Source: Corynebacterium sp. HMSC29G08
GTDB taxonomy: Bacteria; Actinomycetota; Actinomycetes; Mycobacteriales; Mycobacteriaceae
Direction of reading: 5' to 3'
Assembly (NCBI RefSeq): GCF_001806875.1
Contig: NZ_KV786260.1
Span: 1-64,000 of the forward strand
Length of the DNA: 64,000 bases
Shown here: piece by piece, positions 25,468-62,926 of the stretch
Layout: each line of letters opens with the position of its first letter
Numbering within the stretch: the stretch's first letter is position 1
Position numbers and translations under genes: made by a program
Notes under the pieces: model-generated
The model's database searches: none
The model's input: the letters and a program-made list of their open reading frames with translations, nothing else
Told to the model about the DNA's origin: nothing

Positions 25468-26285
25468 CCACGTTAGAGCTGCTGCAACTCGACTTTGTCC
25501 AAGCAACCCTGATTGCGTGTGCCCTGCTGGGGGTGCTCTCTGGTGTGATGGCGCCGCTGATTGTGCTGCGCCAGATGTCCTTTTCAGTACACGCCACCAG
25601 TGAGCTGGCTCTGATGGGTGCGTCTGCCGCGCTGCTGGTGGGCATCAACGTGGGGGCGGGTGCGATTGTGGGGGCGATCGTCGCGGCACTGGTGCTGGCC
25701 GCCCTGGGGCTGAAAGGGCAGCAAGACTCGGCTGTGGGTGTGGTCATGAGTTTCGGCATGGGCTTATCCGTGTTGTTTATCCACCTCTACCCCGGCAACG
25801 CCAACCGCGCGCTTGCGCTACTTACTGGCCAGATTGTTGGTGTGACCGGCCAAGACTTGTGGCTGCTGGCAGGGACCACGGCGCTGATCGTCGTCGCTGT
25901 GGCGGCGCTGTGGCGGCCGTTGTTGTTTGCATCTGCTGACCCAGAAATGGCTGCCGCCTCCGGCGTGCACGTGCGCACGATGGCGCTTATGTTCGCAGTG
26001 CTGGTGGGTATCGCCTCAGCGCAGTCGGTGCAGATTGTAGGCGCTCTGCTGGTTATGTCGCTGCTGATCACGCCAGGCGCAGCCGCCGCCCAAGTCACTG
26101 CCAACCCAGTGCGTGCGGTGTGGCTGTCCATCCTGTTTGCCGAGGCTGCCGCGGTTGGAGGCATGGTGCTTTCCCTTGCCCCGGGTGTGCCGGTGAGTGT
26201 GTTCGTGGCGTTTATCTCGTTTGGCATCTACTTGGTGTGCCGGGTTATTGCGCGGGTGAAGGACTCACGAATCAAAGCACAGTAA
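25464..26285 (+). CDS. znuB: Zinc ABC transporter permease
   Basis: 273 residues of the ABC-3 permease family with about eight membrane segments: VLSGVMAPLIVLRQMSFSVHATSELALMGASAALLVG and GALLVMSLLITPGAAAAQVT are diagnostic. GTG start overlapping znuC. Its stop codon lies inside the first unit of a 10-base tandem repeat; repeat number therefore does not alter the protein. Confidence 0.92.
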   Translation: MTTLELLQLDFVQATLIACALLGVLSGVMAPLIVLRQMSFSVHATSELALMGASAALLVGINVGAGAIVGAIVAALVLAALGLKGQQDSAVGVVMSFGMGLSVLFIHLYPGNANRALALLTGQIVGVTGQDLWLLAGTTALIVVAVAALWRPLLFASADPEMAAASGVHVRTMALMFAVLVGIASAQSVQIVGALLVMSLLITPGAAAAQVTANPVRAVWLSILFAEAAAVGGMVLSLAPGVPVSVFVAFISFGIYLVCRVIARVKDSRIKAQ

Positions 26286-26320
26286 CGCACAGTAACGCAC
26301 AGTAACGCACAGTAACGCAC
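26278..26320. repeat. 10-bp tandem repeat, four units, across the znuB stop
   Basis: CACAGTAACG is repeated four times without a mismatch, followed by CAC. The first copy holds the znuB TAA. It lies between convergent znuB and the DUF2334 gene. Identical copies indicate recent expansion. Confidence 0.95.
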
Positions 26321-55308: not shown

Positions 55309-58155
55309 TTAGGCCGGTTCCATCGGGCCGCGGCCGCTCGGGCCGGCCTCGCCGTCCTCGCCCTCACTGTTGTCGGTGCCGGTGCCGTTGCCGTTGTCGC
55401 GGTCGTCACCGTTGCCGGTGTTGTTGTCGGAGTCAGCAGCGTCGTCCGTGTTCAGGTCCCGCTCCAGGTCCCGGTCCAGGACAGTGCCTGCCGACTCCTG
55501 ATCAGCACCAGTGTCCACAGTGTCAGCCTCGTCCGGGAACTCTGAGGCCGGGCTTGCCGGCTCAACGCGGGACGGGTCGATCTCGCGGACTTCGCTTTCC
55601 AGCTCGATGTCAGCCTCGTCGAAAGTCTCAGCCGGCAGCGGACGCGGACGCGGGGTAAACGTCAGCTTTGCGCCCTTCTCGTCGGCTTCGATGTCGCCGT
55701 CGACGTCGACAGTAATGATCTCGCCAGCACCGATCTCGCCGAAGAGGATCTTCTCCGACAGGACGTCCTCCACCTCGCGCTGGATGGTGCGACGCAACGG
55801 GCGCGCACCCAGCACCGGGTCGAAGCCACGCTTGGCCAGGAGGTTCTTCGCAGCGTCCGTAAGCTCGATGCCCATGTCCTGAGCAGCCAGGTTCTTGTCC
55901 ACTCGGCCGATGAGCAGATCAACCATCTGCACAATCTCTTCCTGGGTGAGCTGGCGGAAGACCACAATCTCATCAATACGGTTGAGGAACTCGGGGCGGA
56001 AGTGCTTCTTCAGCTCATCATGCACCTTGTTCTTCATGCGCTCGTACTGCGCATCCGCATCGGTGGCGGTGCTGCCGGAAAAGCCCAGGCCGACAGCCTT
56101 CGAGATGTCACCAGTACCCAAGTTGGAGGTAAAGATCAGCACGGTGTTTTTGAAGTCCACCATGCGGCCTTGGCCGTCGGTGACGTGGCCCTCTTCCAGC
56201 ACCTGGAGCAGGGTGTTGTAGATCTCCTTGTGGGCTTTCTCGATTTCGTCGAAAAGCACGACCGAGAACGGCTTGCGGCGCACCTTCTCGGTGAGCTGGC
56301 CGCCCTCTTCGTAGCCCACGTACCCCGGAGGCGCACCGAACAGGCGCGAAGCGGTGAAGCGGTCATGGAACTCACCCATGTCCACCTGCACCAGCGAATC
56401 CTCATCACCAAAGAGGAACTCAGCCAGCGCCTTCGACAGCTCCGTCTTACCCACACCGGACGGTCCGGCGAAGATGAACGAACCGCTTGGGCGCTTCGGA
56501 TCCTTCAGGCCAGCACGGGTACGGCGGATGGAACGAGACACGGCGCGCACCGCTTCGTCCTGGCCGATGATGCGCTTGTGCAGCTCGCCTTCCATGTTGA
56601 GCAGACGTGAGGACTCGGACTCGGTCAGCTTGAACACCGGGATGCCGGTCCAGTTGGCCAGGACCTCTGCAATCTGGTCCTCACCAACCTCGGCGATGTC
56701 CTCAAGGTCATCGGAGCGCCACTTCTTTTCCTTCTCCGTGCGCTCCTCACCGAGCTTGCGTTCGGTGTCGCGCAGGCCAGCGGCCTTCTCAAAGTCCTGG
56801 GCGTCAATCGCCGCTTCCTTCTCGCGGCGGACCTCTGCGATGCGCTCATCCACCTCGCGCAGGCCCTCCGGCGCCGTCATGCGCTTAATGCGCATGCGTG
56901 CACCTGCCTCATCCAGCAGGTCCACGGCCTTATCCGGCAGGAAGCGGTCATTGATGTAGCGGTCCGCCAGGTTGGCTGCGGCCTTCAGCGCATCGTCGGT
57001 GTAGGAGACGCGGTGGTGTGCCTCGTAGCGGTCGCGCAGGCCTTTAAGAATCGTGATGGTGTCTTCCACACTCGGCTCATCTACCTGCACCGGCTGGAAG
57101 CGACGTTCCAGCGCCGCGTCCTTCTCAATGTGCTTGCGGTACTCATCCAGGGTGGTGGCACCGATGGTCTGCAGCTCACCGCGGGCAAGCTTGGGCTTGA
57201 GTAACGACGCCGCGTCGATCGCACCTTCCGCCGCACCCGCACCAACCAGCGTGTGGATCTCATCAATAAACAGGATGATGTCGCCGCGCTGGTTGATCTC
57301 CTTGAGCACCTTCTTCAGGCGTTCCTCGAAGTCACCGCGGTAGCGTGAGCCCGCAACCAGCGAGCCTAAGTCCAGGGAGTACACCTGCTTGTCACGCAGC
57401 GTCTCCGGGACCTTGCCGTTAGCAATGTCGAGCGCCAGACCCTCCACGACGGCGGTCTTACCCACGCCCGGCTCACCAATAAGTACCGGGTTGTTCTTCG
57501 TGCGGCGGGAGAGCACCTGCATGATGCGCTCAATTTCCTTGTCACGGCCTACCACCGGGTCCAGCTTGCCTTCCTTAGCAGCTGCGGTGAGGTTGCGGCC
57601 GAACTGGTCAAGCACCAGCGAGTTAGAGCGCTCGCCCTGCCCACGCGGGCCCGGGCCGGCAGCGGCTGGGGATCCCGGCGCTGAGGTCGGAGCCTCCGGG
57701 TTCTGCGCCTCGCCGCCCTCGTAGCCACTCAAAAGCTGGATAACCTGCTGGCGCACACGCGGCAGGTCTGCGCCCAGCTTGATCAGTACCTGCGCTGCTA
57801 CGCCTTCGCCCTCACGGATCAGGCCGAGCAGCAGGAACTCAGTACCGATGTACTTGTGCCCCATCTGCAGACCCTCGCGCAGGGAGAGCTCCAGGACCTT
57901 CTTGGCACGCGGGGTAAACGGGATGTGGCCGGTAACCGGCTGGGTGCCGTGGCCGATGATCTCGATGACCTCATTGCGTACGTCATCAAGATTGATGCCC
58001 ATGGACTCTAAAGCCTTGGCGGCAACACCCTCGCCCTCCTTAATCAGGCCAAGCAGGATGTGTTCGGTGCCCATGTAATTGTGATTCAGCGCGCGCGCCT
58101 CCTCCTGGGCAAGAACGATGACGCGACGGGCGCGATCCGTAAACCGTTCAAACAT
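55309..58155 (-). CDS. clpC: ATP-dependent Clp protease ATPase subunit ClpC
   Basis: 948 residues. Two N-domain repeats ([21 protein letters not shown] and [17 protein letters not shown]) are followed by AAA+ domain 1 (Walker A GEPGVGKT), the UVR-containing middle domain ([24 protein letters not shown]) and AAA+ domain 2 ([20 protein letters not shown]). The core ends near residue 850; the last ~95 residues are an acidic tail of Asp, Glu, Asn, Gly and Ser. Mycobacterial ClpC1 is about 848 residues. It unfolds substrates for ClpP1P2. A candidate ClgR site lies 123-139 bases upstream. Confidence 0.96.
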
Positions 58156-59166: not shown

Positions 59167-60183
59167 TTACAGCTCCTGGAATTGATCAGCAATAGATTGG
59201 TTGAATTTCGCTGTGGTCTCGGGGTGCGCACGAATGCGGGACTTCAGGGTGTTGAGACCCGAGTTTCCATAAATCTGCTGCCCCTGCATGTCCTGGCCAA
59301 CACCCCGCGACTCCGCACGGTAGGCCTCCGGCAGCTCAAGCGTGGGCAGCGTCGTATCCAGATTCGGGGTGAGGAAAAACGGGAAGGAGTAACGCTCCGA
59401 ACCCTTCGCCGTAGGCAGCACGCGGTGGCGCGTGGCCACGAGGTAGCCATCGGTGGCGCTTTCCAGCAGCTCACCAATATTGACCACGTACGTGTTTACA
59501 ATGGGCTGGACATCGATCCAACCGTTGTCCGTCTCCACCTGAAGCCCAGAAGAATCTGGCTCAATGTAGAGCAGCGTGATCACTCCCGAATCCTTATGGG
59601 CGCCAACGCCCTGGGTGGCCTCGTTATGCTCAACCGCGGGGTAACGCACCAGTTTCAGCAGCGGGAACGGGTGTGCAAACTGCTCATCAAACACGCCTTC
59701 GTCCTGGCCAAGCGCTTTCGACCACGCGCGGATAATGTTTTGTGAGATCCCCGTGAGGTGCTGGATGTACCCGTTGACAGCGTCCTTCAGCTCCGGCACC
59801 TGGGCTGGCCACGGGTTCGGCCCCTCAACCACGCGCCACGGGCGCTGTGCGTACTCAGCCTCGTCGTGCGCGGGCAGGTCGAAGGAGTAATCCAGTTGCT
59901 CGCGCCAGTCCACCTTGTTTTGCGTGCGCTCATCGCCGAGGCTGGAGTAGCCGCGGTAGTGGCGGTTGTTCAGGTTGGAAATCTCGTTCTTCTGCTCCAG
60001 TGGCAGTGCGAAGAATTCTTTGGACTTGGCAATTACGGTGTTGCGAAGCTTCTCGTCCACACCGTGGTCCGTGAGGTAGAAAAACCCGATCTTGTGAGTA
60101 ACTTGGCGTAGTCGATCTATTTCTTCTACATCTCCGGCCGCAAGCTTTGCGTAGGAGATGATGGGAAGCGCGGCTTCTGACAT
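59167..60183 (-). CDS. 2-Oxoglutarate/Fe(II)-dependent oxygenase, isopenicillin N synthase-like
   Basis: 338 residues from ATG 60183, which has AAAGGA nine bases upstream (an in-frame start 15 bases earlier is weaker). The DIOX_N region GFFYLTDHGVDEKLRNTVIAKSKEFFALP and the 2OG-Fe(II) domain are complete: iron ligands His196, Asp198 (GAHKDSG) and His253 (TRHRV), and 2-oxoglutarate-binding Arg264-x-Ser266 (RYSFPFF). So it is probably an active oxygenase; the substrate is unknown. Cotranscribed with the MetQ-like lipoprotein. Confidence 0.9.
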   Translation of the reverse strand: MSEAALPIISYAKLAAGDVEEIDRLRQVTHKIGFFYLTDHGVDEKLRNTVIAKSKEFFALPLEQKNEISNLNNRHYRGYSSLGDERTQNKVDWREQLDYSFDLPAHDEAEYAQRPWRVVEGPNPWPAQVPELKDAVNGYIQHLTGISQNIIRAWSKALGQDEGVFDEQFAHPFPLLKLVRYPAVEHNEATQGVGAHKDSGVITLLYIEPDSSGLQVETDNGWIDVQPIVNTYVVNIGELLESATDGYLVATRHRVLPTAKGSERYSFPFFLTPNLDTTLPTLELPEAYRAESRGVGQDMQGQQIYGNSGLNTLKSRIRAHPETTAKFNQSIADQFQEL

Positions 60184-60200
60184 GGTCAATCCTTTCATAA

Positions 60201-60289: not shown

Positions 60290-61933
60290 CTAGCGGGCAT
60301 ACTCCTGCGCTGCCTGCCGGCACTCCTCCAAGCTGCTGCTACCCAGCGCAGCCTGCACCGCCGGAATCTTCACGGCGGCCATGGACAGCGAGCTAACCCC
60401 CATCCCTACCAACACCTGCGCCAGCCTCGGATCGCCCGCGGCCTCACCACACACCCCGATGGGCTTACCCTTCACGACGCCCACCTGTGCCACCATCCGA
60501 ACCATCCCCAGCACCGCCGGCTGCCACGGGTCCTGCAACGCACCTAAATCCCCGTGCATCCTGTCGGCTGCCATCACGTATTGCGCCAGGTCATTCGTGC
60601 CAATGGAGGCGAAATCCACCTCCTCCAGGATCTCTTGCGCCATGATCGCGGCCGCCGGGGTTTCAATCATCACGCCCACGTTTTTCAGCCCGTGAGCACG
60701 GGCGCGCCGCGCGAACCAGCGCGCCTCATCTGCCGACACCACCATCGGCGCCATCACCCACAGCTCCGAGTCCGGGACCTGCCCGGCGGCGTTCGCAAGC
60801 GCTTCAAGCTGCGTCTCCAACAGCTCTGGGTACCGCTGCAACATGCGGATCCCCCGCAGTCCCAGCGCCGGGTTTTCCTCCTCCTGTGCAGGCACGAATC
60901 GCAGCGGTTTATCCGCCCCCGCGTCCAGCGTGCGCACCACCACCCTGCGTCCGGCCGCTGCCCGCAGCGCTAAAACATACTGATCTGTCTGCTCCTTGAC
61001 CCCCGGCGCGTCATCACGGTCCAAGAACAGAAACTCCGTCCGGAACAAACCAACGCCCTCCGCAGCCAAACTTTCCGCAGCCAAGGCGTCCATCTCGGCG
61101 GCACTGCCGATGTTGGCCAGCAGTTTCACCGGGTAGCCGTCGCTGGTCCGGCCAGCGCCAGCGCCTGCCCCAGCGCCAGCTTCAGCCACAGCGCCAGCAC
61201 CAGCGCCAGTACCAGCGCCTGCGCCAGCCTCTCGCACGGCCAACTCCAAGCCAGCCACCTCCTCGGGCGTGGGGTTGACGTGCACTTCACCGGTGGTGGC
61301 GTGGAGGGAGATGCGGTGGGCGTCGCTAAGCAAAATGCCCCTGACCTGCACCACCGCAGGAATCCCGAGCTGCGCCGCGAGGATCGCCGTATGCGATGTC
61401 GGCCCACCCGCCTCCGTGACAATGCCCGCGACCAGCGCCGGATCCAGCGAGGCTGTCTGCGCCGGCGCCAAATCGTGCGCCACAATGATGCTCGGGCGCT
61501 CAAGCTGCGGCACCCCCGGCTCCGGCAGGCCGCGCAGCCGCGCGATCGCGCGATCTCGAATGTCATAGAGATCCACCACCCGCTCCGCGAAGTACCCGCC
61601 CAGATTACGCAGCTTTTCCGCATACACCTCCACGGCATTGGCCACCGCGGTAGTTCGCCCCGCGCCGCGCGCCAGCTCCTTGTCAATCGCCTTGATCAGC
61701 GCCCGATCAGTAGCCAAAGAAGCCGTGGCCTCGAGCATGCTCTTGTGCGGCCCATCGCCCGCAGCCCTCACCGACGCAGCAACCGCATCCAGCGTTTCGC
61801 GGATCTGCTGGCCGTCGGCTGTCGGATCCGTCGAGGGAGCCTCTTGCTTATCGACGCCCACCGGACGCCCCACCCCCACAACCGGCGCCGTTACAAACCC
61901 CGGACAAACACTGATGCCGCGCAAAGTAACCAT
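60290..61933 (-). CDS. ptsI: PTS enzyme I (phosphoenolpyruvate-protein phosphotransferase)
   Basis: 547 residues. The phosphorylated His181 is in GGPTSHTAILA; the C-terminal PEP-binding barrel has GVGLFRTEFLFLDRDDAPG, RTLDAGADKPLRF, SIGTNDLAQYVMAADR and the cysteine of GKPIGVCGEAAGDP. Residues about 235-261, between the two halves, are replaced by an Ala-Gly repeat linker. It transfers phosphate from PEP to HPr for sugar uptake. Unusually, no ptsH or sugar permease is adjacent; the gene follows two envelope-protein genes by 15 bases. Confidence 0.93.
   Translation of the reverse strand: MVTLRGISVCPGFVTAPVVGVGRPVGVDKQEAPSTDPTADGQQIRETLDAVAASVRAAGDGPHKSMLEATASLATDRALIKAIDKELARGAGRTTAVANAVEVYAEKLRNLGGYFAERVVDLYDIRDRAIARLRGLPEPGVPQLERPSIIVAHDLAPAQTASLDPALVAGIVTEAGGPTSHTAILAAQLGIPAVVQVRGILLSDAHRISLHATTGEVHVNPTPEEVAGLELAVREAGAGAGTGAGAGAVAEAGAGAGAGAGRTSDGYPVKLLANIGSAAEMDALAAESLAAEGVGLFRTEFLFLDRDDAPGVKEQTDQYVLALRAAAGRRVVVRTLDAGADKPLRFVPAQEEENPALGLRGIRMLQRYPELLETQLEALANAAGQVPDSELWVMAPMVVSADEARWFARRARAHGLKNVGVMIETPAAAIMAQEILEEVDFASIGTNDLAQYVMAADRMHGDLGALQDPWQPAVLGMVRMVAQVGVVKGKPIGVCGEAAGDPRLAQVLVGMGVSSLSMAAVKIPAVQAALGSSSLEECRQAAQEYAR
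61151..61228. repeat. Imperfect GCCAGC hexanucleotide repeat inside ptsI
   Basis: About thirteen units of GCCAGC-like hexamers encode alternating Ala and Gly. Being six bases long, gain or loss of units keeps the frame and changes only the length of the linker between the phosphohistidine and PEP-binding halves of enzyme I. Confidence 0.9.
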
Positions 61934-61948: not shown

Positions 61949-62926
61949 CTAGCAGATGGGCAGGCGCATGCGCAGGTTCGCCGCACTATCGCCGTTGACC
62001 AGGATCAGGTAGTTGCTCCAGTGGCTGTTCGGCGCCATGTAGTACGTCTCGGTGTCCTGGCCGGGGATTTTCGCGGAAGTGAACTCGCAAACCTCGTTGC
62101 CGTAGTGCTCTACTGACTCGCTAGGCGGGATGGCTGCCTCGCGGGCTGCTTCCGTGTCGTACTGGATTACGGTGATGCCAACCTTGTCATCGACACAGCG
62201 GATCTTCGCCGTCTCATCATTGCCGTATTCACGCGCGGTGCACGGCAACCCGTCGATGCCGCGGCCGCCATCGTTGGCAGCGATGATGTTCGGAAAATCC
62301 TCCGCCACCATCGCATACGGCTGCTCCCAGGCCGTGCCCTGCGTAGCGTTTGGACCTGTGCCTTGGCCAGCGAACCACCACAGCCCGCCACCCACAAGTG
62401 CCACTAGCGCCACCGCCGCGGCAGCGATCGGCCACACCGTGCGCTTCTTTTTGTCAGACTCTTGGCCTTCCTCCACTTTCGGAATCGGCTCGGTTGAGTG
62501 GTGCTGCTGCGGGAGCGACGACGTCTGCCTACTCGGCCCATACTGATACGGCCGACCCGTCAACGGCGCAGCCTCCGCAGGTTTCTCCGCGGTCATGCCT
62601 GCATCCATGCCCGAAGCATTGCCCGAAGTCATGCCCGAAGCATTGCCCCCGCCCAAATTCGTGTGGGCCAACTGACGCAAAGAATCCGGCGTCATCGCCG
62701 GCGCATTCGGGTCGTTCAAGCGTTGGTCGTAGGCTGAACGTCGATAAGGATCCCCCAGCACCGCACGCGCCACCTGCAGTTCCTCCAACCCGCCCGGGTT
62801 CCGCGTGCTGCCAGCCTGAATCCGCTGGTCAATCTCCTGGGCCAACGCGGCCGCGTCCTTCGCCCGATCAAGGCGAAGCGAGTCATACAGGTTGTAGTGG
62901 GCCATCATCCAATCCTCACGGTTCAT
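61949..62926 (-). CDS. Envelope protein with degenerate J-domain-like N-terminus
   Basis: 325 residues. The first ~70 (YNLYDSLRLDRAKDAAALAQEIDQRI through VARAVLGDPYRRSAYDQRLNDP) resemble a DnaJ domain but lack the HPD tripeptide, so Hsp70 stimulation is unlikely. A disordered Gly/Ser/Met-rich region follows (NASGMTSGNASGMDAGMT). One membrane helix (about 167-190, VWPIAAAAVALVALVGGGLWWF) leads to an extracytoplasmic domain with cysteines (LPCTAREYG, KIRCVDDK, NEVCEFTS, RLPIC). Start MNREDWM at 62926 or MMAHYN (62908-62911). Only 15 bases precede ptsI. Function unknown. Confidence 0.75.
   Translation of the reverse strand: MNREDWMMAHYNLYDSLRLDRAKDAAALAQEIDQRIQAGSTRNPGGLEELQVARAVLGDPYRRSAYDQRLNDPNAPAMTPDSLRQLAHTNLGGGNASGMTSGNASGMDAGMTAEKPAEAAPLTGRPYQYGPSRQTSSLPQQHHSTEPIPKVEEGQESDKKKRTVWPIAAAAVALVALVGGGLWWFAGQGTGPNATQGTAWEQPYAMVAEDFPNIIAANDGGRGIDGLPCTAREYGNDETAKIRCVDDKVGITVIQYDTEAAREAAIPPSESVEHYGNEVCEFTSAKIPGQDTETYYMAPNSHWSNYLILVNGDSAANLRMRLPIC

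Follow-up and report, generated by a model that had tools for sequence, protein, structure and literature searches.

PTS enzyme I (EI) serves as a model enzyme for the study of large domain movements. In E. coli, a long connecting helix formed by residues 231–260 links its two halves (PMC5537066). The ptsI, fruK, ptsF, and ptsH genes of C. glutamicum form one cluster (PMC2222622). The phosphoryl-transfer proteins of the PTS can also be kept without PTS transporters, and Comas et al. (PMC2405797) and a report on Brucella (PMC2937029) describe such cases. A coding hexamer repeat is known from Salmonella mutL, in which, according to PMC2955026, three GCTGGC copies and two copies were interconverted in a mutator strain and conversion was undetected in non-mutators. 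No paper on the determinants of EI connector length was found in searches of the open-access literature.

The window, i.e., the whole 64,000-nucleotide stretch of DNA analyzed here, contains an open reading frame for ptsI on the minus strand (60290..61933), the 547-aa product of which matched TIGR01417 with 353.1 bits, above the curated cut-off of 341.7. Three Pfam domains followed one another in the expected order, all encoded on the minus strand: the PEP-utilisers_N domain (PF05524, residues 5–118, 61580..61921), the mobile phosphohistidine domain with His181 (PF00391, residues 145–215, 61289..61501), and the PEP-binding domain (PF02896, residues 262–530, 60344..61150). The identification of the gene as PTS enzyme I in the first-pass annotation was thereby confirmed. 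Between the latter two Pfam domains lies a degenerate hexanucleotide array (61151..61228, minus strand) of 13 GCTGGC units on the coding strand, which makes up 26 in-frame codons of the ORF and encodes the Ala-Gly residues 236–261, AGAGAGTGAGAGAVAEAGAGAGAGAG. Since TRF returned exactly this interval (period 6, 13.0 copies, 75% matches, score 86), the array described earlier as an in-frame repeat between the two catalytic halves of EI is real. The whole interdomain linker, delimited by the alignment anchors EVHV and VKLLANIG, comprises the 53 residues 216–268 (61130..61288, minus strand).

The lag-6 identity of the array over its 78 nt was 0.75, the maximum of the window, with 0.64 at the next best place. 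This value was reached by none of 5000 codon shuffles of ptsI, the top value of which was 0.61. GCT accounted for 10 of the 12 Ala codons in the tract vs. 50 of 305 elsewhere in six CDS from this region (Fisher p 1.5e-6), and this bias suggests copying at the DNA level. When the peptide was held fixed, 14% of the synonymous resampling draws equaled the observed lag-6 identity, so that synonymous choice beyond what the peptide demands was not significant (P 0.14). The longest perfect period-6 run in the array was 15 bp, and 16-bp runs were present at two other places in the window. At 2.5 units at most, the array did not contain the run of several perfect repeats that would mark a phase-variable simple sequence repeat. 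A better slippage candidate than the ptsI array is found at window positions 26277–26320, where a 10-bp unit (GCACAGTAAC) is repeated perfectly in tandem for 4.4 copies across the extreme end of a 273-aa ORF and into the gap that follows.

Linker length was surveyed in two genome sets, each with one genome per species. A search for EI in 242 Corynebacterium genomes (E 1e-40) was positive in 213, and the EI loci of all 213 were fetched and aligned. The linker was measured in a MAFFT alignment from the EVHV anchor to just before VKLLANIG; this alignment was used in place of regex linker parsing, which missed or mis-cut many loci. Genome G098 and the second copy of G035, in which the linker was uncovered, were left out of the linker count, and the second copy of G229 is contained in the sequence count (213) and lies outside the genome count (212). 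Of the 212 genomes with a measurable linker, 207 had one of exactly 39 residues. The five exceptions were the window's genome (G000) with 53 residues, i.e., 14 above the genus norm, G146 (taken as C. riegelii FDAARGOS_1114, NZ_CP068159.1) with 55, G020 with 32, and G105 and G204 with 38 each. The linker of G020 (L131), a genome in which no permease was found, was the only strongly shortened one among the 212. In a named collection, for which 80 loci of 185 relatives were kept, mostly from other actinobacteria, the linker had 39 residues in 68 loci, 38 in seven, and 40 in three, and the remaining two linkers were those of C. riegelii (55) and of one Pseudonocardiales MAG (36). The earlier expectation that the linker length varies between lineages holds for the two nearest lineages, with 53 and 55 residues.

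The linker of C. riegelii, REAAAAEEAAAGVAAVAAGPGSISGQIRNG, lacks the GCTGGC array and is not conserved in sequence with that of the window EI. It carries its own 15-bp repeat of approximately three copies with 83% matches (TRF, L031 5688–5733), which rules out its classification as non-repetitive. The first-pass annotation had stated that its reading would fail if a relative had a linker of the same length without repeats; C. riegelii answers this description only in part, its 55-residue linker being free of the hexamer array but containing a repeat of another unit. The hexamers here and the 15-bp unit in C. riegelii indicate that the two linkers were lengthened to a similar size with different repeats.

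A PF02378 permease was found in 206 of the 242 Corynebacterium genomes. Eight EI-bearing genomes had no PF02378 match (G000, G020, G105, G122, G146, G168, G204, and G223), and all five linkers deviating from 39 residues fell within these eight. PF02378 was ruled out as the sole permease test by G122, a genome with a 39-residue linker, in which it missed a FruA with EIIA and EIIB domains encoded beside fruK and HPr. This FruA matched PF00359 and PF02302 and shared approximately 55% identity with its G100 and G033 counterparts across some 480 residues. With G122 recounted post hoc as permease-bearing, deviant linkers were present in five of the seven genomes without a detected permease vs. none of the 205 others (Fisher 6e-9, kinship ignored), and the pattern also held without the recount (5/8 vs. 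0/204). Regarding kinship, the tree needs only two linker-state changes, and independent pairs yielded two for, none against, and two ties (p 0.5), too few informative pairs for significance; the association between linker and permease spans only two or three independent lineages. In G168 and G223 no permease was detected, yet the linker has 39 residues. Both are weak cases, G168 being 87% complete and G223 consisting of approximately 220 contigs and being sister to G186, which has a weak PF02378 match. The genome of G204 is 77% complete. Calls of permease absence can be wrong, as shown by the FruA of G122 that PF02378 overlooked.

Searches with PF02378, PF00359, PF03610, PF03611, PF00367, and PF00358 yielded no PTS permease component for the window's genome. 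The last five of these families were also without a match in G146 and G020, while PF00367 and PF00358 were absent in G105, G204, G168, and G223, and PF03611 was absent in G105 and G223. The PF00359 search covered G000, G146, G020, and three permease-bearing genomes. A GAT/ascorbate-type permease was considered and set aside on the absence of PF03611 in the 10 genomes tested. A DhaM-dependent dihydroxyacetone kinase as the remaining EI output was likewise set aside on the absence of EIIA-man in the six genomes tested, which presumably implies the absence of DhaM. EIIA-man, EIIA_1, and EIIA_2 were not detected, and no EIIA-type output protein was found in these searches. Since no permease component was found with the six Pfam families, there is, as far as these searches see, no PTS sugar uptake in this genome for the repeat to tune, contrary to what had been proposed from the array alone. 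C. riegelii is reported to ferment maltose and not glucose (PMC5374234), and its non-fermentation of glucose fits the absence of a permease.

The gene neighborhoods of the two long-linker species also differed from those of their relatives. In 22 of the 29 best-scoring relatives' EI loci, a ptsG homologue in the same orientation was found within 1.5 kb upstream of ptsI, and it is missing from this place in the window and in C. riegelii. The order in G033 is clpC-nlpA-ptsI-ptsG-'lipo', in which 'lipo' denotes a putative lipoprotein gene assigned by eye, and the order in both the window and C. riegelii is clpC-nlpA-oxygenase-ptsI-unknown gene-'lipo'. The gene directly upstream of ptsI in the window (61949..62926, minus strand) occupies the spot held by ptsG in G033 and G096, has no Pfam match, and has a start that appears DnaJ-like by eye only. 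It is fast-evolving (dN/dS 0.245), so that the value of ptsI is not the highest among its neighbors, and it contains a 12-bp repeat of 3.4 copies (TRF, 62608–62648). The 2OG-Fe(II) oxygenase gene between nlpA and ptsI (window 59167–60198), shared with C. riegelii, matched nothing in the loci fetched from G033 and G096. At the second locus, the order in G122 is lexA-fruK-fruA-ptsH, with lexA and ptsH flanking a cluster that contains ptsI, fruK, and fruA. Conversely, lexA adjoins ptsH in the window's genome, in C. riegelii, and in G020, and fruK-fruA is missing between them. In G096, where ptsG is present and the linker has 39 residues, lexA is near ptsH without a fruA match and no PF00359 match was obtained, which indicates that a missing fruA is by itself insufficient to release the linker.

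The window EI possesses H181, R298, R334, E424, N447, D448, R458, and C495, which we take to be the catalytic residues of EI, and these residues are also intact in the C. riegelii protein. Outside the linker, the dN/dS of ptsI between the two species was 0.18. The open frame, the low dN/dS, and the retained residues rule out ptsI as a pseudogene, and from the latter two it looks as if the constraint on EI is relaxed rather than absent. All six genomes searched for HPr, including G000, G146, and G020, proved to have it. In G000 it was identified by a PF00381 match, and the protein contains GLHARPA, presumably the HPr motif with the phosphorylatable His. Since purifying selection on EI persists, EI probably keeps a non-transport job.

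In this locus, EI evolved faster in the window lineage, and the main body of ClpC did not. Over the first 820 residues, the ClpC of the window was 93.5% identical to that of G033, the values of eight normal relatives being 90–98% (of 15 loci searched for ClpC, 10 contained it), while EI was 62% identical to its G033 counterpart vs. 75–86% in normal relatives. In the PEP-binding domain, the identity to G033 was 62.5% for the window vs. 80–82% in G119, G022, and G063, and it was 72 and 67.5% in G112 and G186, which have only weak PF02378 matches. An EI tree of 68 of 215 rows, made with a quick method, with the linker columns left out and with a long-branch warning that includes G020, gave a patristic distance from the reference pair of 1.98 for G000 and G146 vs. 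0.91–1.63 in 51 permease-bearing genomes. G020 and G223, at 1.63, tied the permease-bearing maximum, and G105 and G204 grouped with the reference pair, outside the distance comparison. The number of inserted residues in the PEP domain was at most two in 204 EIs of permease-bearing genomes, five rows having been left out of this count, and three in the window. The EI of C. riegelii carries a 16-aa PAPGQAP-type insert in this domain before the conserved NPALG motif, which corresponds to a near-perfect 24-bp duplication (L031 6032–6082).

In the EIs of G105 (L310) and G204 (L305), Thr replaces a Lys that is conserved without exception in a 40-sequence alignment (K342 in the window EI), and eight residues are deleted from their PEP domain vs. 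at most seven in 204 others; on these substitutions and deletions, both proteins are possibly decaying or altered. The HPr proteins of G000 and G146 are 83–85% identical to those of G033, G096, and G100, which are 93–96% identical among themselves, so HPr and EI may share some of the change.

AlphaFold2 models were built from 40 aligned sequences, the alignments comprising 39 of the 80 named-collection loci and the window protein. For the window EI, a helix was predicted at residues 223–239, followed by pLDDT values below 50 at residues 238–258. For a relative with a 39-residue linker (L032, C. haemomassiliense), the predicted helix spanned residues 226–244, and no segment of at least three residues had a pLDDT below 50. 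According to these models, the insertion probably adds a flexible stretch between the connecting helix and the PEP domain.

The repeat is thus probably a trace of a released constraint and not a device for tuning sugar uptake. We lean towards the reading that permease loss relaxed the length constraint on the EI linker, that repeat copies lengthened it, and that EI was kept for a non-transport job. The lineage would have lost the sugar permeases ptsG and fruA while keeping EI and HPr. In the permease-bearing state, swiveling between PEP binding and HPr under sugar flux presumably needs a set connector geometry of 39 residues; once the flux ended, the length constraint would have relaxed and repeat copies would have been tolerated. 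The array would then be a slippage-born, now degenerate Ala-Gly expansion, with the different 15-bp unit as its counterpart in C. riegelii, and would add a flexible segment behind the connecting helix. Purifying selection would have preserved EI, most likely for a non-transport task at low flux, e.g., phosphorylating HPr for regulation. The steps in this chain that go beyond the observations are that slippage built the array, that a relaxed constraint allowed it, that flux had set the linker length, and that EI has a residual function of this kind. A wider proposal, that sugar-uptake flux fixes the EI connector length genus-wide, that permease loss leaves a transport-free phosphorelay, and that linker length consequently reads out transport, is put forward as a doubtful one. 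The corynebacterial genomes constitute a natural experiment: the linker stays at 39 residues in 207 of the 212, and every departure from this length falls in a genome for which no permease was detected. The connector-length question becomes testable with linker variants in laboratory strains, and orphan EI-HPr pairs in corynebacteria, with C. riegelii among them, are brought to attention.

It is unlikely, in our estimate, that permease loss is coincidental and that a clade-wide mutational tendency expands GC-rich repeats in any tolerant segment. Such a tendency may be enough by itself, considering that ClpC, with its low-complexity C-terminal tail, has 948 aa in the window (55309–58155) and 955 aa in C. 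riegelii vs. 906–926 in nine relatives, that the next gene upstream of ptsI contains the 12-bp repeat, and that different repeats occur in the linker and the PEP domain of the C. riegelii EI. However, the connector is length-invariant elsewhere, so that expansion would still need tolerance, and the tendency does not explain the shortened linkers of G020, G105, and G204, nor why EI changed fast and ClpC outside its tail did not.

Recruitment of EI to a new partner, with selection for a longer flexible connector, is less probable still. It would account for the similar lengths of 53 and 55 residues reached via different repeats, and both long-linker species keep the EI residues, HPr, and a low ptsI dN/dS. 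However, no partner was found in the searches, in which EIIA-man, EIIA_1, and EIIA_2 were undetected, the linker sequence differs between the two species, and the linker became shorter in other genomes in which no permease was detected. A contingency locus, in which slippage of the array tunes EI and hence sugar uptake, is very improbable: despite the in-frame position of the array in the hinge, the repeat of another unit and the two-residue difference in C. riegelii, and the ability of three GCTGGC copies to slip in Salmonella mutL (PMC2955026), no permease component was found in the genome, the longest perfect run is 2.5 units, and C. riegelii reportedly does not ferment glucose.

Several known systems resemble that of the window's genome in part. 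The hexamer is identical to that of the mutL (GCTGGC)3 switch of Salmonella and E. coli and is likewise in frame and coding, and by analogy with mutL, even a small number of units could in principle slip. In contrast to the three perfect copies encoding Leu-Ala in mutL, with conversion observed in a mutator (PMC2955026), the window array is degenerate and encodes Ala-Gly. Unlike the C. glutamicum cluster (PMC2222622), the window's genome is without fruK/fruA between lexA and ptsH, and its ptsI is located elsewhere. The window EI aligns with E. coli EI (2HWG, 2KX9) over residues 95–544, but it has a predicted disordered stretch of approximately 21 residues after the helix, and approximately 10 of its linker residues face gaps in the E. 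coli protein. The transporter-less PTS chains resemble the window's genome in that phosphoryl-transfer proteins are kept without transporters found. They differ in that the loss here occurred within one genus, with a changed EI linker and with no EIIA-type output found. By analogy with these chains, the retained EI and HPr would probably constitute a low-flux, non-transport phosphorelay.
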